Virus record (IMG/VR): IMGVR_UViG_3300047378_000702
Coordinates: 1 to 21,213 of that record
DNA length: 21,213 bases
Direction: 5' to 3' (one strand)
Source of the DNA: a virus
Part shown: positions 1 to 21,088 of the stretch, piece by piece
Numbering within the stretch: the stretch's first letter is position 1
How the letters are laid out: each line of letters begins with the position of its first letter
The notes under the pieces: model-generated
Seen by the model: the letters and a program-made list of their open reading frames with translations, nothing else
Told to the model about the DNA's origin: nothing
Database searches by the model: none
Program-made: the position numbers and the translations under genes

Positions 1-3000
1 ACCCTTTAGCAAGAAAAGGTGTTGGTGCTATGATGGGTGTGAGACAAAGAGCCACAAAAGAAGCGGTAAAAACCTTAGCATCTTCAGGAAGTAGACAAGC
101 AGCAATAAAAGCAGGTACCAAAGCATATCTAAAAGAAGTTGGATCTGAGGAAATAGAGGAACTTGTACAAGGAGGATTTGAAAATTACCAAAAATATAAG
201 TATGATCAAAACTCTCCCAATCCAGTATATGGTGTAGATAAGTTTATGTCTAAAGAAGAGTTTACTAACACTCTTATTTTAACTGCTACAGCAACTACTT
301 TAATGGCATCTCCAAACTTGGGAGTATCTTCGTCTCAACTTGAGAAGGAAGCCTGGACTACAGCAGGACTAGACTATGCAAACTTTGAAAAATCAGTACA
401 AAAAGAATTAAATAAAAAGAACCCTAAGTTCACTGAGGAAACTGCCCAGGGTATGTTAGAAAAGGCTAAAGTATATGAAACTATAGTAAAGCCATTAAAA
501 GACTCAGGGGTTAAAATAAATGAGATTACCGAGTTGGCTGATGTTGTTTATAATTCTATGAATGCACCTACACAACCTGATGCAGAAACGTCTGCGGAAC
601 CAACTGTAGAGGAAAAGAAAGCAGAAATCAAAAATGGTATACCTAAACAAGGTGCTATTGTCGATGGAGGTAAAGTTGTATCTGTAATAGAAAACATAGG
701 AGATAGTGCTACAGATTCTGATTTAAAGACTAAACTTGACAACATTCAGGGTAGAACTTTCAAAATGAAAAGAACTTCCCTTGAAACATTATACGAAACA
801 AACAAAGAGTTTAAAAAGTTTGTAGATGAAAACCCTGACATGGTATATGATGGCAAGAATAAAAATGCTCCTGCTGTTATTGATAATGAAGGAAATGTTT
901 TAGATGGAATGAAGCGATTGGCTGCTGCATATAACAGAGGTCAAAAAGGTATTAGAGTTTTTAACGAGCAAGAAACTACTGTTTCAAAAGAAGAAGAAAC
1001 TAGTATTGTTAATGAGATAGATAATATAATTTCTTCTAAATCAGAAAACAGCACCAATGAGTCTATGGAAGACATAGAAAAAATTGGTAATCATTTTCAA
1101 AGAGTATTTAAAGGATCAACAATAGAATTTGATCAAGAAGTATTTAATGCTGAGGCTCAAAAGAGAGGATTAGATCCTGCAAAAAACAAAGGGTTCAGAG
1201 ATAGAAATACAAATCAAATTTATATAAACCCTAAACTTGCTACGCTTGATACACCTATACATGAGTTTGCTCATATATGGGAGGATATGTTGGCTGAAGT
1301 TAATCCAGATGCTCATAAAAAAGCAATGGCTTTAATTAAAGGTACAAAGTATCATAAAGAAGCGGTTGCTAACGGTTATGGAGATAGAGCACTAAACGAG
1401 GCTTTAGTACAGGCTATTGGTGAAAAAAGTGCTAAAATATTTAAAGATCCTAAGAGACAATCACAGTTTGAAAAAGTAATTGATCAAGTTAAACAGGCAA
1501 TTAAGCAAGCATTAAACCTACCTAGTGACGCAGATTTTGATATCAAAACAAGTAGTATTGATGCTGTTATAAACTCAAGTGCAGAGAAAATAATGTCTGC
1601 CACAAGTATTGATCCTAATGCAAATAAAGAATCAATTGATGTTGACGCAATTGACGCACAGAGATATAAAAACCCTGAGCGTGAAGCAATAAAAGAATTT
1701 AATGCGTTAAAAGAAACATTAGAAAACGACCCAACACTATCACAACTTACTCCTGTGATGAAGGAAGGTAAATATCAATTCACTAAAACAAAATCAGGTA
1801 AACTAAAAGTTAAAATATCTGGTCAGTCTTATGCTTTGGTTAACGGAGTTAATGAATACTTTGAGGGAACAATTGAAGAGAAAATAGATCTGATTGGTGA
1901 TAAAATTGTAGATGAATTTGAAGCGAATAAGGATGTACCTGAAGTAGTTAAAGGTTTAGGATGGTATAAAGATTTACATTTAAATATGAGAAACCTCTTT
2001 GGAGGTAGAACTAATTTCTTTGGTAGATTGTTAGGTGCAACTTCAGGACAGACAGATGTACAGCAAAATTACAAATATGCTACTCAAGCATTAGAGGCTT
2101 ATTCAAAGGGTGCTTATGACAAGTACATAGAAGAATATAAAGAGTTTATTGATAGAGTAGAACAGTTTGAAAACGAAGAGGAATTAAATCAATTCTTCAA
2201 CGAATATAAAGGAAGAGCAGTAAACGCTTTAAAAAAACAAGGAAAAACTGCTTATAGCGAATCAAGACTTAAGCCTGATCCTAAAGATATTAACGAAACA
2301 AAAAGAAAGTTATTAAATCTATGGCCAAAGGCTAACCCTTTATATAGAACTGATAATCCTACAAAACTATACGGTATTAATAGTCCTGCTGCTGCAAAGG
2401 TGTTAGCAGGTATTTGGTTGCAACAAACTCAGCAATCAAAAACAAATAACTTTTATGAAAATGTTGTTGGTATAACAACAAATCCTACCATTGATTTATG
2501 GGCTGCTCGTACAATAAGACGAATGGTTTACGATGGTAATGTCGATAGATATAGAATTGCTGAGAGAGCCGAGCAAGGTGTAGATGAAAGAGTTTATGCT
2601 GCTGAGGCAGGAGGTTTTTCAGATTACCAATTAGCGGAAGAGGTTATTAAAAACGCTTCGGCTAAACTAGATATGGATCCTGATGATCTACAGGCATACT
2701 TATGGTTTGCAGAAAAGGATCTTTGGTTAAAGAAAGGATGGTCAAAAGGAACTGCCGCTAAGAAATCTGATTTTAGGGAAGAGGCTGCTAAAAATGATAT
2801 CACTAGATATTATTTAGGATTAAGTACAGAAAGAGATCAGTATACAGATCCTGAGTTAGAAGCAAAAGATAACTTAGAAATAATAGAAGAGGAAAGACAG
2901 TCTATTCAAAATGACTTAAGAGAGGGTGACCTGGTATCATTAAAAGTAAACGAGACACAGGGACAGTATTTAATATATCCTGAAAGAAGTTTTGATGCTG

Positions 3001-6000
3001 AGATGATTGTAAAGTCGGATCAAGATATGACTCCTGTTTTAAAGAGGGCTATTGAGTCTGCAAAGAAACATGAACAAGAATCTGTATTCTTATCAGAGGT
3101 ATTACCTATTGATGAGAGAATGGATCCTGAAACAATGGAGAGAGAATTGGCTAAACGTCCAAACGCTCGGCCTGCTGTTGAAATGCAATTTAGAACTCCA
3201 ATGAGTTTTGAAGAAGCATCTACTTTCGCTAGAGAAAATTTAGACAAAGAAGGTGTTCAGTTAGGGCCAATAAAAACAGATATTTCTGGTTATACTTTTA
3301 TAACTAATGAAGCAGGAAATAAAGTATTAGGTGTTAAGTATCAGTTTGTTCCAGAGTTTGTTTTTGAAAACGAAGAGGATATTACAGATGATAATGTAAG
3401 GCAAGCAGTTAGTGACTGGAGTAATAATGCACATGAAACTAAATTAAATTTAGAGAATAACGAAAATGTTTTGTACTTTTACAACCATTATGTAGATACA
3501 TTCGTTGCTCACAATAATCAATACAACGGAATCTTAAATAATATAGAAAATGGATCAAAAGACATATTTAAAGGAACTAGCAAAACACGCACAAAGGAAT
3601 ACTTCCAATCAAAGGCCACAAGAGTCGAACCCCAACAAGGAAGTCCAAGTGTCGATGCACAAAGACAACAAGATGAAGGGGATAGATCCCGCTTCTCTGG
3701 AACTGTATCGCCAAATGATGGCGGATCGATTTCAGCAGTCGAACACAGAAGAATAGATCAGGCAAAACTACCTGATCAACTTACACAATTACTTACTACA
3801 TTGAGTGGACAAGGCATGGTGCCTTCTAAACTTATTCCCGCAATTAAGATTTATTCTCAAAGAGTAGATGGTAAAGAACTATCTACTGAACAAGCGAGAA
3901 TGCTGCTTAATAAATTCATGGGGTCTGAAGGTTTTAGACAAAGAGGATTTGAAACAGGATCTATTGAAAATGCTAAGGACAGCGATGAAGGAAAGCAGGA
4001 AGTATATGATTGGGTAAACGAAAATCCCAACTATTACGAAACCATGGATATGAAACAAACCATGGAACTAGTATTAGAGGACATAAATTCTAGAGGTGGT
4101 TTTGAAAACGAACAAGTAATAAAAGATTTACTAGGTAGTAATACCACCGTTAAAGAGTTAGCAAGAGTACAGTTAGCACGTCAAGCAGCATTACATCATT
4201 ACGGATTAAAAGTCAGTAAACTTAGATCGGAGGGTGCCTCAGGTGCGGAGATAGATTCTGTAATTGATACAATGGCTAAAATAGAACGTGTTTTAGCAAA
4301 AGACGCTACAGAAGCAGGACAAGCATCTGCCGCATTAAGATCTTGGACAGCACAAACAGCCGCTACATTAATTGACAGGACTGAACGTGCCATGGAGAAG
4401 TTCAACGAGGACATGGACAATAAAAGTAAGTTTGGTCATTTTATTCATAGGCTTTTTGGAGGTAAACAAAAATTAGAAAGCACAACACTATCAGAAGAAC
4501 AGCGTTCAAAAATTGAAGAGTTACACTCTATAATTAAAGACGCTCCTTCTAACAGTGAACTTGCTAATGTTGCTATGAGATCTATGTATAAATATATGGA
4601 TTCAGTATTACCTTCTTACACATGGCAAGACACCTTCTTTGGTTTGCAATACGCAGCACTTTTATCAGGTGCGTCTACGCAAGTATTAAATGTGACATCA
4701 GGTAGTGCAAACATTGTTTTGCAACCGTTAATGGAAATGTCTAGAATAGATAAAATCTTTACAGGTGGTTACTTTGATTTCATAAGAAAGATTGGTTCTG
4801 GCACAAACAAAAAAGGTATGCAGCAAGGCTATAATATGGCTATGGATATCTGGAAAAATGGAGCCAGAGTAGATAAATACCAGAACTCTGAAAGCACACC
4901 AGATGGTGGTCAGTACAATGTTTTAGAAACTACAGAATTTAAAGGTGGTAAAGCAAACCCTTACAATTACTATAAGTATGTAGGTAGAATGTTAAATGCT
5001 ACTGATAGATTTATAAGTAAAGTTGGATATGAAGGTAGATATTATAATTATCTGATAGATCAATTAAGAAAAGATGGTGTTCCTAAAAGTCAATTAAGAA
5101 AGAGAGCATCAGAGTTATACTTAGCAACTGAAGTTAGTAGAACCGCACAAAAGGAAATGGAAACCTTAATGAACAGAATGCGTGAGGCTGATCCTAATAC
5201 TGATTTTAGTAATATAGAAGTTGTTAGAGCAAGAGAATTAATGCACGAAGCACTTGCTTTAAAATACAGTGAGGACTTTGTTGACAAATCAGATGCTGAA
5301 CTTGAGGTGATGAAGGAAAAAGATGGTTTCGATGGAACCATTGAAGAGTTTAAAGAATACATGAAGGCCATGAAAGAGGCTGAAATAAACGGTATTGCTA
5401 CAGACGCTAACTTGGCTAGTAATGCACAGGTGTTTATAGACAATAGACCAGGTGGTTTTGCTCAACCTATTGCTTGGGTCGCTGATAAAATTAGACAAGC
5501 ATCCAATTCACAAAGTATAGGGTTTGGTGGTAAACTTGCCCTGAAATCATTTGTACCTTTTACAAGTATTATTGGTTCAATTGGTGAATATATGATCGAT
5601 GTTACACCTGGTATAGGTTTAGCAAGAGCATACATTGCTAAGGATGGTTTGGGTGAAAAAGGATCTAGAATGAGAGACGAACAAATGTCTAGAGCATACT
5701 TTGGTACAATGTCGTTTTTAGGTCTAGCAGCACTTGCGGCTAAGGCATATGAAGATGATGATGAGGAACCGTTTTTTGAAGTAAGTGGTGGAGGTTACAA
5801 CAACTCTAACATGTACACTAGAAACGATATGAAGAATGCTTCACTACCTCCATATTCTTTTAGAGTTGGTGGTGTAGTTATGGATTATAGAAACATAGTT
5901 CCTTTAGCAATTCCAATGGCCATTATAGGTAATTATATGGAAACTCACAAGATGACAGGAGGAAAAGGAGAAGTGTTTGATGATATGATGTCTAGATTAA

Positions 6001-6740
6001 CTATTGCTTATGCAAATTCAGCAAACTTAATTATGGATTCATCTGTACTTACATCTGTGAAAGAATTAACTGAGGCCATATTTGGTCAAGTAGATGGTAG
6101 AGGATCTCAATACGATCCTAATACGGTTAGTGATTCTAGTTTAAATAAAACATTACAGCGTATAGGTAAAACATCTATTAGATCTGTAGGAGGTACTATA
6201 ATGAGACCATTACCACAAAACCTAAATTTATTTAGACAGGTGACTAAAATATTTGATGCTAATTCATATAGTGCAGGAGATGCTAAAAACGCATTGTTAT
6301 ACGCAGCAGGACTTAGTCAAATAGCAGGTCAACCAAAAGTCGATGTGTTTGGTGAACAGGCTAAAAGTTTTCCTGGTGAAACAGTAATTCCTTATACTCA
6401 TTGGTTAGGTTTAAGAGGCTCTGATGCTAGATGGCAGTTTTTAGATAAGTATAACGCTTATCCTGGTAAAATTCAAAATAGACCTATGAAAATAGGAAGA
6501 GACATGAGACCTCTTACAGATGAAGAACTGTATCAACATCAGGTTACTACTGGTCAAGAGTTTAATAAACTCATTATTAAATACATGAAAGGAAGAGGTA
6601 AACTTGAAGATAAAATACTTACTTATTCAGGTAGATCTCAAAGCATGCACAAGACGAACATATCTAAAATGTGGTCTGCTGCTCAGGCTAAATCTAAATT
6701 GAAAAATAAAAAATCCTGGAGAAATACAGTAATAGATTAA
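1..6740 (+). CDS. Giant multidomain (polyvalent-type) virion protein, 5' end missing
   Basis: The frame is open to the left edge (codons for PLARKGVGA precede the first in-window Met at 30), so this is the C-terminal part of a still larger protein; at least 2236 residues are present. Counting from the Met at 30, residues about 240-310 resemble a ParB-like fold (VLDGMKRLAAAYNRG near 290). Residue 411 starts a zinc-metallopeptidase motif, HEFAHIWED, with a downstream NEAL glutamate near 457 as a possible third ligand. From about residue 1540, LLSGASTQVLNVTSG resembles a segment common in large phage internal or ejection proteins. A hydrophobic stretch (FLGLAALAAKAY) lies near 1900. A polar, Gln/Ser/Pro-rich linker lies at about 3560-3770. 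Combining enzymatic domains in one huge chain is typical of polyvalent proteins injected with phage DNA. Amidase and holin genes follow, fitting a late-gene position. The virion role is inference; the metallopeptidase motif is seen directly. Confidence 0.85.
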   Translation, partial: PLARKGVGAMMGVRQRATKEAVKTLASSGSRQAAIKAGTKAYLKEVGSEEIEELVQGGFENYQKYKYDQNSPNPVYGVDKFMSKEEFTNTLILTATATTLMASPNLGVSSSQLEKEAWTTAGLDYANFEKSVQKELNKKNPKFTEETAQGMLEKAKVYETIVKPLKDSGVKINEITELADVVYNSMNAPTQPDAETSAEPTVEEKKAEIKNGIPKQGAIVDGGKVVSVIENIGDSATDSDLKTKLDNIQGRTFKMKRTSLETLYETNKEFKKFVDENPDMVYDGKNKNAPAVIDNEGNVLDGMKRLAAAYNRGQKGIRVFNEQETTVSKEEETSIVNEIDNIISSKSENSTNESMEDIEKIGNHFQRVFKGSTIEFDQEVFNAEAQKRGLDPAKNKGFRDRNTNQIYINPKLATLDTPIHEFAHIWEDMLAEVNPDAHKKAMALIKGTKYHKEAVANGYGDRALNEALVQAIGEKSAKIFKDPKRQSQFEKVIDQVKQAIKQALNLPSDADFDIKTSSIDAVINSSAEKIMSATSIDPNANKESIDVDAIDAQRYKNPEREAIKEFNALKETLENDPTLSQLTPVMKEGKYQFTKTKSGKLKVKISGQSYALVNGVNEYFEGTIEEKIDLIGDKIVDEFEANKDVPEVVKGLGWYKDLHLNMRNLFGGRTNFFGRLLGATSGQTDVQQNYKYATQALEAYSKGAYDKYIEEYKEFIDRVEQFENEEELNQFFNEYKGRAVNALKKQGKTAYSESRLKPDPKDINETKRKLLNLWPKANPLYRTDNPTKLYGINSPAAAKVLAGIWLQQTQQSKTNNFYENVVGITTNPTIDLWAARTIRRMVYDGNVDRYRIAERAEQGVDERVYAAEAGGFSDYQLAEEVIKNASAKLDMDPDDLQAYLWFAEKDLWLKKGWSKGTAAKKSDFREEAAKNDITRYYLGLSTERDQYTDPELEAKDNLEIIEEERQSIQNDLREGDLVSLKVNETQGQYLIYPERSFDAEMIVKSDQDMTPVLKRAIESAKKHEQESVFLSEVLPIDERMDPETMERELAKRPNARPAVEMQFRTPMSFEEASTFARENLDKEGVQLGPIKTDISGYTFITNEAGNKVLGVKYQFVPEFVFENEEDITDDNVRQAVSDWSNNAHETKLNLENNENVLYFYNHYVDTFVAHNNQYNGILNNIENGSKDIFKGTSKTRTKEYFQSKATRVEPQQGSPSVDAQRQQDEGDRSRFSGTVSPNDGGSISAVEHRRIDQAKLPDQLTQLLTTLSGQGMVPSKLIPAIKIYSQRVDGKELSTEQARMLLNKFMGSEGFRQRGFETGSIENAKDSDEGKQEVYDWVNENPNYYETMDMKQTMELVLEDINSRGGFENEQVIKDLLGSNTTVKELARVQLARQAALHHYGLKVSKLRSEGASGAEIDSVIDTMAKIERVLAKDATEAGQASAALRSWTAQTAATLIDRTERAMEKFNEDMDNKSKFGHFIHRLFGGKQKLESTTLSEEQRSKIEELHSIIKDAPSNSELANVAMRSMYKYMDSVLPSYTWQDTFFGLQYAALLSGASTQVLNVTSGSANIVLQPLMEMSRIDKIFTGGYFDFIRKIGSGTNKKGMQQGYNMAMDIWKNGARVDKYQNSESTPDGGQYNVLETTEFKGGKANPYNYYKYVGRMLNATDRFISKVGYEGRYYNYLIDQLRKDGVPKSQLRKRASELYLATEVSRTAQKEMETLMNRMREADPNTDFSNIEVVRARELMHEALALKYSEDFVDKSDAELEVMKEKDGFDGTIEEFKEYMKAMKEAEINGIATDANLASNAQVFIDNRPGGFAQPIAWVADKIRQASNSQSIGFGGKLALKSFVPFTSIIGSIGEYMIDVTPGIGLARAYIAKDGLGEKGSRMRDEQMSRAYFGTMSFLGLAALAAKAYEDDDEEPFFEVSGGGYNNSNMYTRNDMKNASLPPYSFRVGGVVMDYRNIVPLAIPMAIIGNYMETHKMTGGKGEVFDDMMSRLTIAYANSANLIMDSSVLTSVKELTEAIFGQVDGRGSQYDPNTVSDSSLNKTLQRIGKTSIRSVGGTIMRPLPQNLNLFRQVTKIFDANSYSAGDAKNALLYAAGLSQIAGQPKVDVFGEQAKSFPGETVIPYTHWLGLRGSDARWQFLDKYNAYPGKIQNRPMKIGRDMRPLTDEELYQHQVTTGQEFNKLIIKYMKGRGKLEDKILTYSGRSQSMHKTNISKMWSAAQAKSKLKNKKSWRNTVID

Positions 6741-6742
6741 TT

Positions 6743-7168
6743 ATGAGAGACATAAACAAGATTATTGTTCATTGTACCGCTACACCTGAATTTAGAAAGG
6801 TTTCGGTTGAAGAAATAGATCGATGGCATAAAGATAGAGGATGGTCACAAATCGGTTATCATTATGTCGTGCAGTTAGATGGCACTATAAATCAGGGGCG
6901 ACCTATCACTATCACAGGTGCTCATGTAAAGGGACATAATAAAGGTTCTATAGGAATAACATATGTCGGAGGTTGTGATTCAGAAATGAATCCTTGCGAC
7001 ACAAGAACGGATGAACAAATAGACAGCCTTGAGTATCTTATTGGTTATCTTTGTGCCAGTTATCCAGGTGCTGAGGTATATGGTCATAGAGATTTCTCTT
7101 CTAAGGCCTGCCCTAGTTTCGATGCTAAGTCTGAGTACGAATCAATACAGAAAAAATATGTTCGATAA
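6743..7168 (+). CDS. N-acetylmuramoyl-L-alanine amidase (T7 lysozyme-type endolysin)
   Basis: A 141-residue Amidase_2 protein expected to cut the amide bond between N-acetylmuramic acid and L-alanine in peptidoglycan and so release progeny. Zinc ligands His10 (IIVHCTAT), His115 (YGHRDF) and Cys123 (KACPSFD), plus Tyr39 and Lys121, match T7 lysozyme His17, His122, Cys130, Tyr46 and Lys128 with a constant offset of seven residues. The domain is therefore essentially complete and presumably active. No signal peptide is visible, so export should depend on the holin encoded downstream at 7720-8187. The start lies two bases after the stop of the giant gene, which indicates co-transcription in the late operon. 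T7 lysozyme also inhibits its phage RNA polymerase, but no such polymerase is visible here. Confidence 0.93.
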   Translation: MRDINKIIVHCTATPEFRKVSVEEIDRWHKDRGWSQIGYHYVVQLDGTINQGRPITITGAHVKGHNKGSIGITYVGGCDSEMNPCDTRTDEQIDSLEYLIGYLCASYPGAEVYGHRDFSSKACPSFDAKSEYESIQKKYVR

Positions 7169-17544: not shown

Positions 17545-17904
17545 TTAATCGTTTAATTTTTTAAATTGTAATACTAGATTATCTTTCCAATGATCCTTAT
17601 CGTTGAGGTATTCATCTATGATCTTATTAACTAAAGGAATTTCCTCTACTCCAAGGGTAGATAGTTTTGTTACCAAGGCATCAATATGATTTTGAATATT
17701 CATAAAAAACTCCTCATCATTCTCAGCAAACTTGTTGACGTACTTCTCAATCTCCTTTTCCAATTCAAGTTCTGCCTGCTTTACTTTATGTTTTAATGAG
17801 TGTTTAAAAATCTTTGTGTCTTTAAGATCATCAAATGCCTCTAACATTAATTGTCCGTAGATAACCGCTTTGGTTATGCTGTAAAATACTTCTTGTTTTT
17901 CCAT
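17545..17904 (-). CDS. Helical hypothetical protein (119 aa)
   Basis: A 119-residue, highly charged, mostly helical protein (KQAELELEKEIEKYVNKFAE). The start overlaps the stop of the zinc-ribbon gene by one base (TAATG), so its translation is coupled to that gene. No family recognised. Confidence 0.7.
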   Translation of the reverse strand: MEKQEVFYSITKAVIYGQLMLEAFDDLKDTKIFKHSLKHKVKQAELELEKEIEKYVNKFAENDEEFFMNIQNHIDALVTKLSTLGVEEIPLVNKIIDEYLNDKDHWKDNLVLQFKKLND

Positions 17905-18488
17905 TATTTTAGTGATGTTTTTAATTGTTCTCTTGTCATTCCATATTCGTTTTCAAGCCAATCTAAAAATGTTTCTTCGTCTTTAGATCTTACTAAAATA
18001 GAAGTGGCCTGAGAAAATACATTGCTTGTTATACTTGATACGATTGATACTGCTACAGGGCATTCAGAGTTTTCTCCTATAATTTCATGGACTAAATCGT
18101 TAAACTTATGCTTCCAGGAAACATCTTCCCAATATCCTGTAGTCCATCCGCTTTCTATATCTTTCCATCCTTCCTTGAATTCAACGTCCATATAACCTCT
18201 CCATGCATTTGAATTTACCCATTTGCAATCTTTTACAGGTTGGTGATCCTCATCATCATCAGAATAAATTTCTTCGTAGTATGTATTGAATGCCTTCCCT
18301 ATTTCATGCGGGTAATAATATTTTTTTGTCTCCTGATCTTGGGGTGACCATGTCTGAATTACAGTAGAGCGATTAAAAGCCTCGTAATAGCATTCTTCAC
18401 ATAGGATCTCATCGTTACGGTCGTATTGATAAAAATCTAGATCTTGATCTATCTCTTGCTCGCAGCAATCACAAAAATTTTTTTTCAT
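17904..18488 (-). CDS. Zinc-ribbon hypothetical protein behind hammerhead ribozyme 1 (194 aa)
   Basis: A 194-residue protein whose N-terminus carries paired cysteines, CDCCEQE (residues 6-9) and CEECY (from about residue 30), fitting a small zinc ribbon. The rest is acidic and rich in Trp and Tyr. The frame is open upstream to an ATG at 18587, but that 33-residue extension would be translated from the ribozyme core, and ribozyme cleavage would remove its start. The ATG at 18488 has the usual leader (AAAACTGAAACA) and lies 26 nt after the predicted cut. Function unknown. Confidence 0.75.
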   Translation of the reverse strand: MKKNFCDCCEQEIDQDLDFYQYDRNDEILCEECYYEAFNRSTVIQTWSPQDQETKKYYYPHEIGKAFNTYYEEIYSDDDEDHQPVKDCKWVNSNAWRGYMDVEFKEGWKDIESGWTTGYWEDVSWKHKFNDLVHEIIGENSECPVAVSIVSSITSNVFSQATSILVRSKDEETFLDWLENEYGMTREQLKTSLK

Positions 18489-18509: not shown

Positions 18510-18595
18510 ACAAAGACGAGGGAGCCAAAAATCATGGAGTCGTTCAAAACATTTCTCCCTCGTTTCGCCTGAGTTACACAGGCTCATCAGTTTGC
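18510..18595 (-). ncRNA. Hammerhead ribozyme 1 (type I), long stem III
   Basis: Minus-strand order: stem I 5' arm GCAAA, core CTGATGA (complement of 18584-18590), stem II GCCTG / CAGGC with a 7-nt loop, GAAA, stem III ACGAGGGAG / CTCCCTCGT with a 30-nt loop (complement of 18525-18554), then the cleavage-site C. Stem I 3' arm is TTTGT. Cleavage is predicted between 18515 and 18514. All invariant hammerhead residues are present. The 3' end of the 18574-18717 gene overlaps the core, and its TAA lies in loop II. The next ATG (18488) is 26 nt downstream of the cut. Confidence 0.93.
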
Positions 18596-18717
18596 TTTTT
18601 CTTTTTTGTAGGTTTCAGGTAAACTATATACCCTTCATCTTTTAAAAGATCTTTTGCTTTTGCTACCTTTCTCTGTTGAGATCTGTAGTGTTCAAATATT
18701 TCATTAGTTATAGCCAT
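18574..18717 (-). CDS. Small basic protein whose 3' end overlaps ribozyme 1 (47 aa)
   Basis: A 47-residue protein (MAITNEIFEHYRSQQRKVAK...) with a helical basic middle and a Lys-rich tail. The last codons (Q-T-D-E-P-V) are spelled by the hammerhead core CTGATGA and stem II, and the stop is in loop II. Coding and catalytic RNA therefore share bases. It begins 10 bases after the stop of the 18728-19039 gene. Family not recognised. Confidence 0.65.
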   Translation of the reverse strand: MAITNEIFEHYRSQQRKVAKAKDLLKDEGYIVYLKPTKKKKQTDEPV

Positions 18718-18727
18718 AGTTTAGATT

Positions 18728-19039
18728 TTAGTATGCACTTATTGGCATAGATTGATTTTGTTCAAATGTTTGCTCTAGTTCTTCACCTTGTAAATAAATT
18801 GGTGCTGTCATCCTGTGCATGATCTTTGCTAAACTGTCTGCAAGATCTACCAGGAAATCATCCTGCTGCCAATCTGTTATAGTACAATCGTTTCCGATCC
18901 TTCCTAGTATCCCGCCTCCTAAATAGTTTTGGTAGGCTGTCATTTTTTCTCCTGGGTAACCTTGGTTTTCTAGGCAGATCTCTATACCTCCGCCTCTTGT
19001 AGTTACTTTTTGTCTGATAATATTAAAACGAGTCTTCAT
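18728..19039 (-). CDS. Hypothetical protein (103 aa)
   Basis: A 103-residue protein (MKTRFNIIRQKVTTRGGG...) with a glycine-rich middle (YLGGGILGRIGND) and an acidic Gln-rich end. The start lies inside the preceding small gene, overlapping by 17 nt. Predicted mixed alpha/beta. Function unknown. Confidence 0.7.
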   Translation of the reverse strand: MKTRFNIIRQKVTTRGGGIEICLENQGYPGEKMTAYQNYLGGGILGRIGNDCTITDWQQDDFLVDLADSLAKIMHRMTAPIYLQGEELEQTFEQNQSMPISAY

Positions 19040-19190
19040 TATATGTGATTTTTATTGGTTCTATTTTAAATGTTTTGCAAAGTTTGTTGTACGTTTCTAG
19101 TCCTGAGGATGACATTCTTTGGGCCTCCCAACCAAGATCTATAATTTGATCCTGGATTTCTGCTAGTTTTTTTGATGTGATTACAGCCAT
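19023..19190 (-). CDS. Small helical hypothetical protein (55 aa)
   Basis: A 55-residue protein (MAVITSKKLAEIQDQIIDLG...) fitting exactly between its neighbours. The ATG overlaps the upstream stop by one base (TAATG), and the end overlaps the next gene by 17 nt. The coupling at both ends supports a real gene. No family recognised. Confidence 0.65.
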   Translation of the reverse strand: MAVITSKKLAEIQDQIIDLGWEAQRMSSSGLETYNKLCKTFKIEPIKITYNEDSF

Positions 19191-19597
19191 TATGAATTGT
19201 ATTTTAAAGTGAAGTAGATCATGTCTAACAATTCATCCTTTGGTTCATCCAAATCAATGATGCTCATAATCTCGTCAATTACTCTCATCATTCCTTTACC
19301 TTCGGCAGCATCGTGTGAGTCTCCTGCATCAAGTAATTCCTGGGCCTGTTCTTCTAGGCTGTAACGATTTGGGGTGACCTCCTCTTCATTCTCAACCCAA
19401 GGACATGCCTTATTGTATAGAGAGAGAGCAAGATCTTTATTACCTATAGCAGTCATAAGAATGTTTAACTCGTTACGCTGTGCTGTACCTCTTCGATATA
19501 CTCCAGGATCCTCAGATCTTTGATAATGCCAATCATGACTGTTAAGAGCGTTTTGTAATTTCATGATCGCTTGTAATTTTTGAATTTCAGTTTGCAT
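19190..19597 (-). CDS. Hypothetical early protein following ribozyme 2 (135 aa)
   Basis: A 135-residue acidic, mainly helical protein (MQTEIQKLQAIMKLQNALNS...). The ATG is 26 nt after the predicted cut of hammerhead 2, with an A-rich leader. It carries one GGTCACCCC sequence (as E-V-T-P). The small-protein gene 19023-19190 is translationally coupled to its end. Function unknown. Confidence 0.72.
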   Translation of the reverse strand: MQTEIQKLQAIMKLQNALNSHDWHYQRSEDPGVYRRGTAQRNELNILMTAIGNKDLALSLYNKACPWVENEEEVTPNRYSLEEQAQELLDAGDSHDAAEGKGMMRVIDEIMSIIDLDEPKDELLDMIYFTLKYNS

Positions 19598-19618
19598 TGT
19601 AATAGTTTTTTTAGTTAT

Positions 19619-19672
19619 ACAAAGACGCTCCGCAGAGCGTTTCGCCTGGATCTCACAGGCTCATCAGTTTGT
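19619..19672 (-). ncRNA. Hammerhead ribozyme 2 (type I)
   Basis: Minus-strand order: stem I 5' arm ACAAA, CTGATGA (complement of 19661-19667), stem II GCCTG / CAGGC with loop TGAGATC, GAAA, stem III ACGCTC / GAGCGT capped by TGCG (a UNCG-type tetraloop), cleavage-site C, stem I 3' arm TTTGT. Cut predicted between 19624 and 19623. The ribozyme starts on the base directly after the TAA of the 47-residue membrane protein gene. The next ATG (19597) is 26 nt downstream of the cut. Stem I can continue past one A-A mismatch. Confidence 0.96.
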
Positions 19673-19816
19673 TTATCCCAGGTATCCAAAACTTGCGTTA
19701 GGATCTACACCTTCTGTTACCAGGTGAAAGACTAGCATTGTAAATGTTAGTGCCCATAGTGTGAATAAAGATCCTAAAAGGCTATTGATTACGATTGATT
19801 GAATTTTGTTTAACAT
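19673..19816 (-). CDS. Small single-pass membrane protein (47 aa)
   Basis: A 47-residue protein with one hydrophobic helix at residues about 13-33 (LLGSLFTLWALTFTMLVFHL), a short basic N-terminus and an acidic end. The leader AAACTGAAAATC before the ATG is the same as before the 86-residue gene at 20757-21017. Its stop touches hammerhead 2. It may act on the host membrane early in infection, or in superinfection exclusion; this is a guess from topology. Confidence 0.65.
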   Translation of the reverse strand: MLNKIQSIVINSLLGSLFTLWALTFTMLVFHLVTEGVDPNASFGYLG

Positions 19817-19842
19817 GATTTTCAGTTTAGATTATTTATTAA

Positions 19843-19983
19843 TTAATTAAAGTTTGTAAGGTTCATTAGATCAGATTGTCTCTCAATAAGATCCATAGCG
19901 GATAGCAATGCTAGTCCTAAGAAAGTAATTGCTATTCCAACTACTGTTGCGATTAGTACTAATTTTAATTTTGATTTTGACAT
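19843..19983 (-). CDS. Small single-pass membrane protein following ribozyme 3 (46 aa)
   Basis: A 46-residue protein with a basic N-terminus (MSKSKLKLV) and a hydrophobic helix (VLIATVVGIAITFLGLALL), then a polar tail. The ATG is 27 nt after the predicted cut of hammerhead 3. A second small membrane protein follows after a 26-nt leader, so the 387-nt RNA released between cuts 3 and 2 would encode two membrane proteins. Function unknown. Confidence 0.65.
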   Translation of the reverse strand: MSKSKLKLVLIATVVGIAITFLGLALLSAMDLIERQSDLMNLTNFN

Positions 19984-20005
19984 TTTATTTATTTTAAATT
20001 ATTTG

Positions 20006-20053
20006 ACAATGACGCTTCGCAGCGTTTCGATCATAAAGATCTCATCAGATTGC
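20006..20053 (-). ncRNA. Hammerhead ribozyme 3 (type I), divergent stem II
   Basis: Minus-strand order: stem I 5' arm GCAAT, CTGATGA (complement of 20042-20048), stem II GATC / GATC with loop TTTAT, GAAA, stem III ACGCT / AGCGT capped by the GNRA tetraloop GCGA, cleavage-site C, stem I 3' arm ATTGT (one G-U pair). Cut predicted between 20011 and 20010. Stem II is unlike the GCCTG stem of the other copies yet still pairs. The TGA of the 84-residue gene lies within CTGATGA. The next ATG (19983) is 27 nt downstream of the cut. Confidence 0.94.
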
Positions 20054-20299
20054 CTGGTATAATTCTTTATCTACCTGCATCCATAAATTGTAAACATAGT
20101 TGTAGTTGGTGCCTAACATGTCGGCAAGGTGTTGAAATAATCTCTCTCTAATTAGACTGTCTTCTACACCAATGATGATGTACACGTTACCTCCTCTATG
20201 TAAGCAATCCATTAAGCATACAAAAGTTGTTAAGTTGATTTTAGATCCCATATCATCTGTTGGGTAATTTTCCTGGTAGAATTTTCTTAATGTTAACAT
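20045..20299 (-). CDS. Hypothetical early protein between ribozymes 4 and 3 (84 aa)
   Basis: An 84-residue protein (MLTLRKFYQENYPTDDMGSK...) with a hydrophobic central strand region (GNVYIIIGVED). The start is 29 nt after the predicted cut of hammerhead 4, and its stop codon is inside the core of hammerhead 3. The two ribozymes would release it as a monocistronic RNA of 318 nt. No family recognised. Confidence 0.72.
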   Translation of the reverse strand: MLTLRKFYQENYPTDDMGSKINLTTFVCLMDCLHRGGNVYIIIGVEDSLIRERLFQHLADMLGTNYNYVYNLWMQVDKELYQAI

Positions 20300-20323
20300 C
20301 GGTTTTAGTTTAAATTAATTTTC

Positions 20324-20377
20324 GATTAGACATCCCGAAGGATGTTTCGCCTGGATCTCACAGGCTCATCAGTAATC
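20324..20377 (-). ncRNA. Hammerhead ribozyme 4 (type I)
   Basis: Minus-strand order: stem I 5' arm GATTA, CTGATGA (complement of 20366-20372), stem II GCCTG / CAGGC with loop TGAGATC, GAAA, stem III ACATCC / GGATGT capped by a TTCG tetraloop, cleavage-site C, stem I 3' arm TAATC. Cut predicted between 20329 and 20328. Stems I and III differ from copy 2 at paired positions while stem II and its loop are identical. It starts on the base directly after the TAA of the 92-residue gene. The next ATG (20299) is 29 nt downstream of the cut. Confidence 0.96.
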
Positions 20378-20656
20378 TTATGCTCTCGCAATTATCGAGT
20401 CCAAGGTGTCTGCAATTGCATGTAGATCTCGAAGGATCATAATATCGTGTGAGTATAGACGATTGGCCTCTGATCTTAAATTTGTGTAGTAGTAACCGTC
20501 ATAGATACCGTAAAGAGAATTTACCAGGTCACTTGCTCTGAAGCCTCCGTTACTTATTTTGTTGATCGTAGTTTGGATGAAAGACATCATCATTGGGTTA
20601 AATGTTGTTTGTCTATCGAATCTGTTGAAGGCTGTGAAATAGTTTGAATTTGTCAT
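20378..20656 (-). CDS. Hypothetical early protein (92 aa)
   Basis: A 92-residue protein (MTNSNYFTAFNRFDRQTTFN...), mainly helical with a Tyr-rich middle (YGIYDGYYYTNL). The leader AATTTAAACTAAAATAAAA before the ATG is typical for this operon. Its TAA directly borders hammerhead 4. Family not recognised. Confidence 0.72.
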   Translation of the reverse strand: MTNSNYFTAFNRFDRQTTFNPMMMSFIQTTINKISNGGFRASDLVNSLYGIYDGYYYTNLRSEANRLYSHDIMILRDLHAIADTLDSIIARA

Positions 20657-21055: not shown

Positions 21056-21088
21056 CAAATATATAGAATTATTTTGTTAACATCCAAA
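21056..21088 (-). promoter_or_regulatory. Early promoter (Bacteroidetes type) with operator-like sequence
   Basis: On the minus strand TTTG (complement of 21085-21088) is followed after 21 bases by TATATTTG (complement of 21056-21063), fitting the Bacteroidetes -33 TTTG / -7 TAnnTTTG arrangement. The upstream GTTAAYAAAAT sequence is shared with the minus promoter at 14830-14837. The bases just downstream, TACCATCGTTC, cover the expected start site and recur at 14817-14827 in opposite orientation, suggesting an operator. Confidence 0.72.

Follow-up and report, generated by a model that had tools for sequence, protein, structure and literature searches.

Type I hammerhead ribozymes at the gene junctions of a phage operon and their likely role in transcript segmentation

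Four type I hammerhead motifs lie at gene junctions on the minus strand of a 21,213-nt virus sequence (IMG/VR record IMGVR_UViG_3300047378_000702, positions 1 to 21,213), referred to here as the window. They are likely (probability about 0.8) to be active ribozymes which segment the transcript of one phage operon without a protein, cleavage in cells being inferred. The motif, its covariation, the junction geometry, the conservation at syntenic junctions and the spread in phages are shown. The role of hammerheads in prokaryotes and their phages was described as an open question in a 2017 review (PMC6155905).

All four elements are on the minus strand. Hammerhead 1 (20324..20377, class A) has a 5-bp stem I (GATTA/TAATC), the stem II GCCTG/CAGGC, the loop II TGAGATC and a stem III capped by UUCG; the cut is predicted between 20329 and 20328. 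Hammerhead 2 (20005..20054, class B, predicted cut between 20011 and 20010) is built from a 6-bp stem I (GGCAAT/ATTGTC), a 4-bp stem II (GATC/GATC), the loop II TTTAT and a stem III capped by GCGA. Hammerhead 3 (19619..19672, class A, predicted cut between 19624 and 19623) matches the first copy exactly over the 28 nt of core and stem II, while its stem I reads ACAAA/TTTGT and UGCG caps stem III. Hammerhead 4 (18510..18595, class A, predicted cut between 18515 and 18514) carries a 9-bp stem III with a 30-nt insertion (18525-18554) that is kept in relatives. The type I core C3 U4 G5 A6 N7 G8 A9 ... G12 A13 A14 is present in every copy. CTGATGA, stem II, GAA, a stem III opening with A15.1-U16.1, H17 = C and stem I are likewise intact in 4/4, the cleavage site is always GUC, and the three helices follow the type I topology with an open-ended stem I. 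By every class-defining sequence feature, the four elements are thus type I hammerheads. This is shown for the motif, and self-cleavage is inferred from it. In the minimum-free-energy folds of all four copies, the stem I of 5-6 bp is unpaired; activity therefore hinges on the three-way junction and on a tertiary contact that is unproven.

The genes around the elements are all on the minus strand. A gene of unknown function (20378..20656, 92 aa) lies upstream of hammerhead 1, its stop codon adjoining stem I. Between hammerheads 1 and 2, an unknown 84-aa gene (20045..20299) starts 29 nt past cut 1 and ends with a UGA within the core of hammerhead 2. The next ATG, 27 nt past cut 2, opens a 46-aa gene (19843..19983), and the gene upstream of hammerhead 3 (19673..19816, 47 aa) has a stop adjoining stem I; each of the two products shows one hydrophobic stretch by eye. 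Downstream of hammerhead 3, g6 (19190..19597, 135 aa, unknown) begins 26 nt past cut 3. The 47-aa gene upstream of hammerhead 4 (18574..18717) places its last six full codons and its UAA stop inside the ribozyme, with the stop in loop II, and g7 (17904..18488, 194 aa, unknown) begins 26 nt past cut 4. A possible Bacteroidota-type promoter, TTTG-N21-TANNTTTG (21056..21088, minus strand), precedes the first gene of the operon. The pattern follows the general promoter consensus of Bacteroidota; it has 2 matches in the window versus 1.47 expected and is weak evidence alone. One shared transcript for the four same-strand junction elements is an inference. Many other junctions of the operon have no ribozyme, so any segmentation would be partial.

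Two other readings of the local sequence were considered and rejected. An open reading frame running from the core ATG of copy 4 (18587) into the next gene is probably no gene; in locus L042 (loop TGAGATT) the frame meets a UGA, as checked by eye. Stem III as an intrinsic terminator fails generally, only copy 3 of the four being flagged, with a weak T-run.

Most of what the first-pass annotation had read from the letters held. The four minus-strand hammerheads are where it placed them, except that the second is one pair longer, and their type I identity, with core, stem II, stem III, GTC and open stem I, was confirmed in 4/4 copies. That stems I and III vary on both strands while staying paired was also confirmed, and such changes are more extensive in relatives. 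The claim of regular placement failed, the distances between neighbouring copies being about 270, 330 and 1020 nt. A position between the genes held in part: the elements are at gene junctions, but there is coding overlap at two of them (genes 20045-20299 and 18574-18717). The word "early" for the operon rests on an inference from position only.

In the covariance search against Rfam that the annotation had proposed as a check, none of the four copies reached a gathering score, and only sub-threshold matches were obtained; its refuting outcome was thus met as far as Rfam is concerned. RF00163 (Hammerhead_1, gathering 34 bits) was passed by 0/4, and under RF03152 (RAGATH-1, gathering 56.3 bits, which includes a 5' hairpin) copies 1 and 3 scored 25.3 and 22.5 bits. 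The gathering score of RF00163 is the detection threshold of a single model, rather than a trait of ribozymes in this class. Models were therefore built from relatives. For class A (R1), 9 of 33 rows were dropped and one window copy was added, leaving 25; for class B (R2), 9 of 45 rows, themselves drawn from 102, were dropped and one window copy was added, leaving 37. Elements with a stem III longer than 22 nt were omitted from the class A input. Under the better-fitting model the window copies reach 59-88 bits: 85.5 for hammerhead 1, 88.2 for hammerhead 3 and 59.4 for hammerhead 4 with R1, and 69.3 for hammerhead 2 with R2. These scores are partly circular: the models were trained on alignments that include copies 2 and 3 as well as a sequence from L024 identical to copy 1. 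Neither alignment contains copy 4, yet it scores 59.4 bits. These searches took in only some of the loci: R2 was run on 40 and 50 records, R1 on 40 and a pistol model on 50; the records had been selected for holding such elements, and the tallies are not rates. In ten loci, the Rfam thresholds recover 2/40 such elements, which are therefore probably widely unannotated.

Chance is very unlikely to account for the motif. The pattern CTGATGA-N8-38-CGAAA has 4 matches in the window versus 0.04 expected, and 0/100 shuffles reach four. When the core in a structural finder was scrambled, none of twenty versions gave a match on loci where the true core gave 131. This test controls the finder and not the rate, since most loci were fetched using the true core. 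Relatives were fetched with patterns of core and stem II only, ignoring stems I and III. Among the 136 distinct contexts chosen in this way, 127 nevertheless contain stem I, stem III and an H17 compatible with cleavage. The remaining 9 were missed by the finder, which demands a stem III of at least 4 bp; by eye, stem I is present in eight of them alongside a stem III that is bulged or only 3 bp long, and the ninth shows a mismatch in stem I. Across 165 unique elements, N7 varies (CTGATGA 112, CTGACGA 46, CTGAAGA 7), the other core positions being fixed by the finder, and H17 is mostly C (158), with A in the other 7 (G was excluded by the finder). A blastn search with 37 bases of copy 3 against phage records returned no match.

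The helices are supported by covariation. In class A (25 sequences), 9/16 pairs show two-sided change, and 97.4% of cells are paired versus 78.8% in shuffles; in 15/500 shuffles, at least as many pairs change on both sides as in the real alignment. In class B (37 sequences), the values are 14/16 pairs and 95.7% versus 69.9%. Stems I and III covary in both classes, and stem II does so too in class B. Two hammerhead architectures (A and B) exist, both inside the window operon. Across the two classes, the type of loop II tracks the length of stem I and conserved flanking A's. This association hints at a possible tertiary contact, inferred from sequence alone without a structure or mutants.

The position of the elements relative to genes was counted over many phage contigs, leaving out elements less than 300 nt from a locus end; those included do not represent independent lineages. 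The upstream gene ends before the cut in 177/180 cases versus 943/2884 random positions, and three upstream ORFs extend beyond the cut. The stop codon lies within the core or stem II/loop in 54/180; in 72 further cases it ends 0-5 nt ahead of the core, on the 5' side. A start codon follows 15-45 nt past the cut in 141/207 elements. As for the exceptions, 27/207 elements have no qualifying upstream ORF, no start was found for 22/207, and in 17/207 the first start found precedes the cut by up to 30 nt. The idea that stop codons are present in all three frames by design is unsupported (only 63/207 elements), and the idea that a loop II UGUAA exists to act as a stop is half supported (3/6 elements).

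The placement is conserved in relatives. A class A hammerhead stands directly ahead of g6 in 12/12 loci having this gene and directly ahead of g7 in 11/12, with one intervening gene in the twelfth; for g7, the comparison used a longer start, further upstream. The upstream neighbours of these hammerheads vary. A T7-like phage record contains 14 hammerheads on one strand across 24 kb, of which 2 exceed the RF00163 threshold. In L178, whose RNA polymerase is 50% identical to that of the T7-like record, the polymerase gene is still flanked by a hammerhead on either side, and the stems differ. For two more distant relatives of this polymerase (27-28% identical), no hammerhead was found in the fetched stretch or record. 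Another record combines hammerheads and pistol ribozymes. Pistols were found in 2/50 hammerhead-bearing records versus 0/14 control genomes, mostly right behind a gene's stop. The cultured Cellulophaga phage phi19:3 has one hammerhead (gp051/gp050) and one pistol (gp046/gp045), both at gene junctions, and the question can therefore be tested in a laboratory phage. The annotation of phi19:3 also includes an RNA ligase family protein.

Found across many phage contigs, the fixed stop/cut/start geometry suggests that operons are segmented and allows the RNA ends to be predicted exactly. Each ribozyme would fold during or soon after transcription and cut the nascent polycistronic RNA 3' of GUC. The upstream mRNA would then end in the stem II and III hairpins of the ribozyme with a 2',3'-cyclic phosphate, and the downstream mRNA would begin with a 5'-hydroxyl and reach the ATG after a short leader of 26-29 nt that is open and A-rich. 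The end chemistry of hammerhead cleavage is established for the class as a whole. Separate messages made from one operon could differ in ends, stability and translation. Cleavage in cells, the chemistry of the RNA ends and the effects on stability and translation remain inferred, without cleavage or transcript data for these sequences.

Translation-gated cleavage is a possible alternative. It is proposed because stop codons sit in stem I, loop II or the core: a ribosome reaching the end of the upstream gene would unfold the ribozyme, the cut would occur only after its departure, and processing would track upstream translation. The stops within the core or stem II/loop (54/180), together with the 72 ending just 5' of the core, speak for it, as does the loop II of copy 4, a UGUAA that serves as the stop in 3/6 such elements. 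However, tight gene packing alone yields the same geometry, in the other 3/6 the stop already falls within the core, and at most stops, just 5' of the core, a ribosome obstructs only briefly. It is also possible that the elements mark the boundaries of exchangeable cassettes, near-identical cores offering short recombination homology and cutting giving a swapped-in gene its own message. The gene content from tRNA-Arg to g7 differs among relatives while hammerheads recur, and copies 1 and 3 share their 28-nt core and stem II. On the other hand, variable gene content is normal for this part of phage genomes, and no breakpoints were mapped within ribozymes. Circular or spliced RNAs, or ends rejoined by a ligase, are very unlikely to be the outcome instead of separate messages. 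Several ribozymes per transcript and the ligase family protein annotated in phi19:3 would fit, but spliced or circular products were undetected in an earlier study (PMC3088659), and the fixed distance to the ATG suits mRNA leaders. Inactive hammerhead-like sequences arisen by chance or decay, favoured only by the lack of Rfam matches at thresholds, are all but excluded by the four matches versus 0.04 expected, the 20 scrambled controls with 0 matches, the strong compensatory change and the fixed gene-junction placement.

Segmentation thus remains the preferred reading. As related phages carry up to fourteen of these motifs, ribozymes at gene boundaries look like a general, protein-free punctuation of phage messages. 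A bolder version would be that unrelated phage groups punctuate their genes with any ribozyme class at hand (two hammerhead architectures, pistol), with the upstream stop in or beside the 5' part and the start about 26 nt past the cut, that this replaces host RNase III in T7-like phages, and that cutting is gated by completed upstream translation. Taken as one joint claim, this is unlikely.

Several known systems resemble the array. RF00163 has the same topology and core as the window copies, but its score threshold is unmet by all four. RAGATH-1 (RF03152), the top Rfam model for two of them, shares the type I form, the short stem I and the A-rich 5' flank; it differs in its upstream hairpin, which is poorly matched or omitted in the window copies. 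The HHphage element of the haloviruses HF1/HF2 lies 13 nt upstream of an early-gene start codon, and a transcript 5' end maps within 3 nt of its cut (PMC3088659). Like the window copies, it stands shortly upstream of a start codon, but it is a single variant element before the first ORF of the transcript and not an intercistronic array. In T7, RNase III sites lie between the early genes, and the host protein cuts a long hairpin. There too, a polycistronic phage message is divided where genes meet, whereas the window RNA would cut itself. In the open-access literature searched, no title or abstract start dealt with hammerhead arrays in T7-like or Bacteroidota phages; coverage was incomplete, with few subscription papers. 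The view put forward in the first-pass annotation, that an operon with several hammerheads between its genes is unusual, held only partly, as prophage clusters have been known since 2011 (PMC3088659). Perreault et al. described clusters flanking prophage genes and proposed a processing of long phage transcripts. Three tandem prophage arrangements cleaved in vitro, and one of them, the A. tumefaciens triple array around ardA, did so in E. coli as well; the term "stop codon" is absent from the main text. As in these clusters, several hammerheads are found close by, around single genes or short gene blocks, the window having four on one strand at gene junctions. In contrast to them, four elements lie in one operon and up to 14 in the T7-like record, the geometry was quantified across many phages, and the peripheral parts come in two architectures. 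Scale, stop/cut/start geometry, architectures and class exchange are thus what is added to the known prophage clusters.

The window comprises 21,213 bases of a virus record. Four elements on its minus strand (copies 1 to 4, at 20324-20377, 20005-20054, 19619-19672 and 18510-18595) fit the type I hammerhead exactly. All four are ordered as stem I, CUGAUGA, the stem II hairpin, GAA, the stem III hairpin, C17, and the stem I partner, and the stem III hairpin starts with A15.1-U16.1. The claim of the first-pass annotation, that four type I hammerheads lie on this strand, held, as the core and three stems are present in each. A loose pattern, CTGATGA-N8-38-CGAAA, matches four times in the window, compared with 0.04 expected. 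The Rfam search that the annotation had also called for found no family at gathering score anywhere in the window. Closest were the RAGATH-1 hammerhead model, at 25.3 bits with 56.3 required, and Hammerhead_3, whose topology does not fit, at 20.1 bits with 48.5 required. In ten loci holding 40 hammerheads, Rfam at gathering score detected 2; five further loci gave two matches, which were one element shared by two near-identical phages, and sixteen more loci gave one.

Relatives were sought in viral contigs with two patterns, from both of which stems I and III were absent. Core and stem II of one architecture (class A) gave 60 stretches, and a second pattern with a short stem II gave 102. Both other stems and a cleavable H17 (the cleavage-site nucleotide, not G) were present in 127 of 136 distinct contexts, namely in 41/49 class A contexts and in 86/87 contexts of the second architecture, class B. 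As a control, a structural finder requiring the core and paired stems was run with the true core, which yielded 131 elements, and with 20 scrambled cores, which yielded none in the same loci. Most of these loci had already been selected by the class A pattern, and the rest had come in through relatives of one window protein. The wider set holds 280 elements (165 unique) in 148 of 164 loci, some of which share one contig. Genome contigs contributed 10 stretches, nine from Legionella (eight species) and one from a beta-proteobacterial MAG. The Legionella matches (L073-L081) carry the class A core and stem II pattern with, by eye, an apparently 3-bp stem III; Legionella hammerheads adjoining ardA have been mentioned (PMC3088659).

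Class A (42 unique elements) has a 5-bp stem I and a 5-bp stem II with a loop that is mostly UGANAYY. An A lies immediately 5' of stem I in 42/42, and U and A are found at the 3' edge (88% each). Class B (123 unique elements) has a 6-bp stem I, whose sixth pair is formed in 98%, an A just outside stem I on either side (95% and 91%), and a mostly 4-bp stem II with the loop UNAAU or similar. Copies 1, 3, and 4 belong to class A and copy 2 to class B. Because the type of loop II is linked with stem I length and the flanking A's, the classes may represent two alternative tertiary contacts, a possibility inferred only from this linkage. Stem III of copy 4 contains a 30-nt insertion (18525-18554, minus strand) with AUGUUUUGAACGA...CAUGAUUUU. 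Relatives retain it despite changes in the surrounding stem III, and it may be a protein or ligand site.

Covariation supports stems I and III in both classes and stem II in class B. Among 25 class A elements, 9 of 16 pairs showed two-sided change, and pairing held in 97.4% of cells, compared with a shuffled mean of 78.8%. None of 500 shuffles matched the fraction paired or the covariation score, and 15 attained the number of two-sided pairs. Stem II is invariant here because the search pattern fixed it. In class B (37 elements), 14 of 16 pairs changed on both sides, pairing was 95.7% (shuffled mean 69.9%), and 0/500 shuffles attained the observed value on any of the three measures. Sliding the partners by 1-3 columns lowered pairing to 16-42% in the class A alignment and 26-34% in the class B one. 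The pairing percentages are biased upward, since the finder selected only rows that pair; the double changes are not explained by this requirement alone. Further pair types were not above shuffles in either class (count attained by 89/500 for class A and 148/500 for class B). At the copy 2 junction and its nine orthologues (9 distinct), every cell was paired, and the double changes, in 2 of 15 pairs, were not above chance (158/500 shuffles attained 2).

The hammerheads have a consistent position relative to genes. Among 171 non-redundant elements with sufficient flank, 153 have an ORF starting at most 60 nt past the predicted cut, compared with 30% at random, and 150 have a stop codon between -20 and +30 of the core, compared with 12% at random. 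In a second count of 207 elements, the upstream ORF was open in 180. It ends before the cut in 177 of these and extends past it in three, compared with 943 of 2884 random positions at which it ends before. Of the 180 ORFs, 35 have their stop codon in the core and 19 in stem II or the stem II loop; in 72 more, it ends 0-5 nt ahead of the core. A downstream start was found for 185 of the 207 elements: 17 of these starts precede the cut and 168 coincide with or follow it, 141 of them by 15-45 nt. The window ATGs lie 29, 27, 26, and 26 nt past the cuts of copies 1 to 4. Since related phages were counted together, these counts are not independent events.

Synteny was compared over 23 loci, two of which (L057 and L064) had no gene cluster in common with the rest. 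Gene content varies between a tRNA-Arg(TCT) gene and g7, the gene downstream of copy 4 (17904-18488, minus strand). A class A hammerhead lies immediately ahead of g7 in 11 of the 12 loci with this gene, one gene intervening in L033, and immediately ahead of g6, the gene downstream of copy 3 (19190-19597, minus strand), in 12 of 12 (both by eye). The upstream neighbours of these hammerheads vary. A tRNA search of the window found none; from the gene order in L066, the tRNA-Arg is inferred to lie just past its end. The TTTG-N21-TANNTTTG site ahead of the operon is weak, with 2 such sites in the window and 1.47 expected. On the plus strand, a 2,245-aa open frame (1-6740) runs off the window edge and adjoins an amidase gene (6743-7168), and the replication and accessory genes are on the opposite strand. 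The top matches of the window primase (30-38% identity) are unnamed faecal phages, vB_RanS_PJN03, Tenacibaculum, Cellulophaga and Flavobacterium phages, and some cyanobacterial phages. On these grounds, the host is likely a member of the Bacteroidota.

Larger arrays occur elsewhere. The 39,798-base record G013 has 14 hammerheads on a single strand over 24 kb (L170/L169, 10936-35337, minus strand), including both flanks of its RNA polymerase gene. This T7-like phage record encodes a T7-type RNA polymerase (PHROG E 3e-161; 28-32% identity in 15 of 2602 known-phage matches), DNA polymerase, thymidylate synthase, exonuclease, and DNA ligase. Its relative G043 has 13 hammerheads. In L178, whose polymerase is 50% identical, a hammerhead with differing stem sequences flanks the polymerase gene at either end, and in L179, one follows this gene. 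Two polymerase relatives at 27-28% identity had no hammerhead in the sequence examined. The L178 polymerase gene also contains a group I intron (2913-3115, plus strand; Rfam, 74.7 bits).

Record G088 has a mixed array (L152, 3510-6813, plus strand), with hammerheads at successive gene junctions (five by R2, a covariance model built from relatives, and four by the finder) followed by three Rfam pistols in the same direction. A stop codon immediately precedes two of the pistols. The remaining one overlaps the 5' portion of a called ORF, in which an in-frame ATG lies 23 nt past the pistol. Pistols were found in 2 of 50 examined records and in 0/14 control genomes. The other record is the cultured Cellulophaga phage phi19:3 (NC_021789), the annotation of which includes an RNA ligase family protein. 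It has a class B-like hammerhead with an 8-bp stem I (21767-21819, minus strand, 49.5 bits, gp051/gp050 junction) and a pistol (20369-20436, minus strand, 46.5 bits, gp046/gp045 junction). For both, the annotated upstream gene end falls inside the ribozyme. In Rhizobium phage RHph_Y38, a class B-like hammerhead (L168, 3597-3644, plus strand, 59 bits) begins 7 nt past the end of a tRNA-Pro gene, and so might define the 3' side of this tRNA.

In the simplest account, with cleavage inferred, every ribozyme would cut the operon transcript between genes. Hammerhead cleavage produces an upstream fragment with a 2',3'-cyclic phosphate and a downstream one with a 5'-OH (PMC6155905). Two stable hairpins would close the upstream message, and an open, A-rich leader of roughly 26 nt would start the downstream one. 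That another ribozyme class occurs at such junctions argues for cutting, rather than the hammerhead itself, as the retained feature, again with cleavage inferred.

Several hammerheads are known to flank prophage genes, for which transcript processing was proposed, and a triple array was cleaved in E. coli (PMC3088659). Known ribozyme classes have been found near phage genes and near the genes of other ribozymes (PMC4604425), and the prokaryotic hammerhead role was named an open question (PMC6155905). Hammerheads between phage genes are therefore of a known kind. Within the literature searched, the new points are how many occur per genome, the measured geometry in which stop codons fall inside the ribozyme, the two architectures with their linked features, and the T7-like case.
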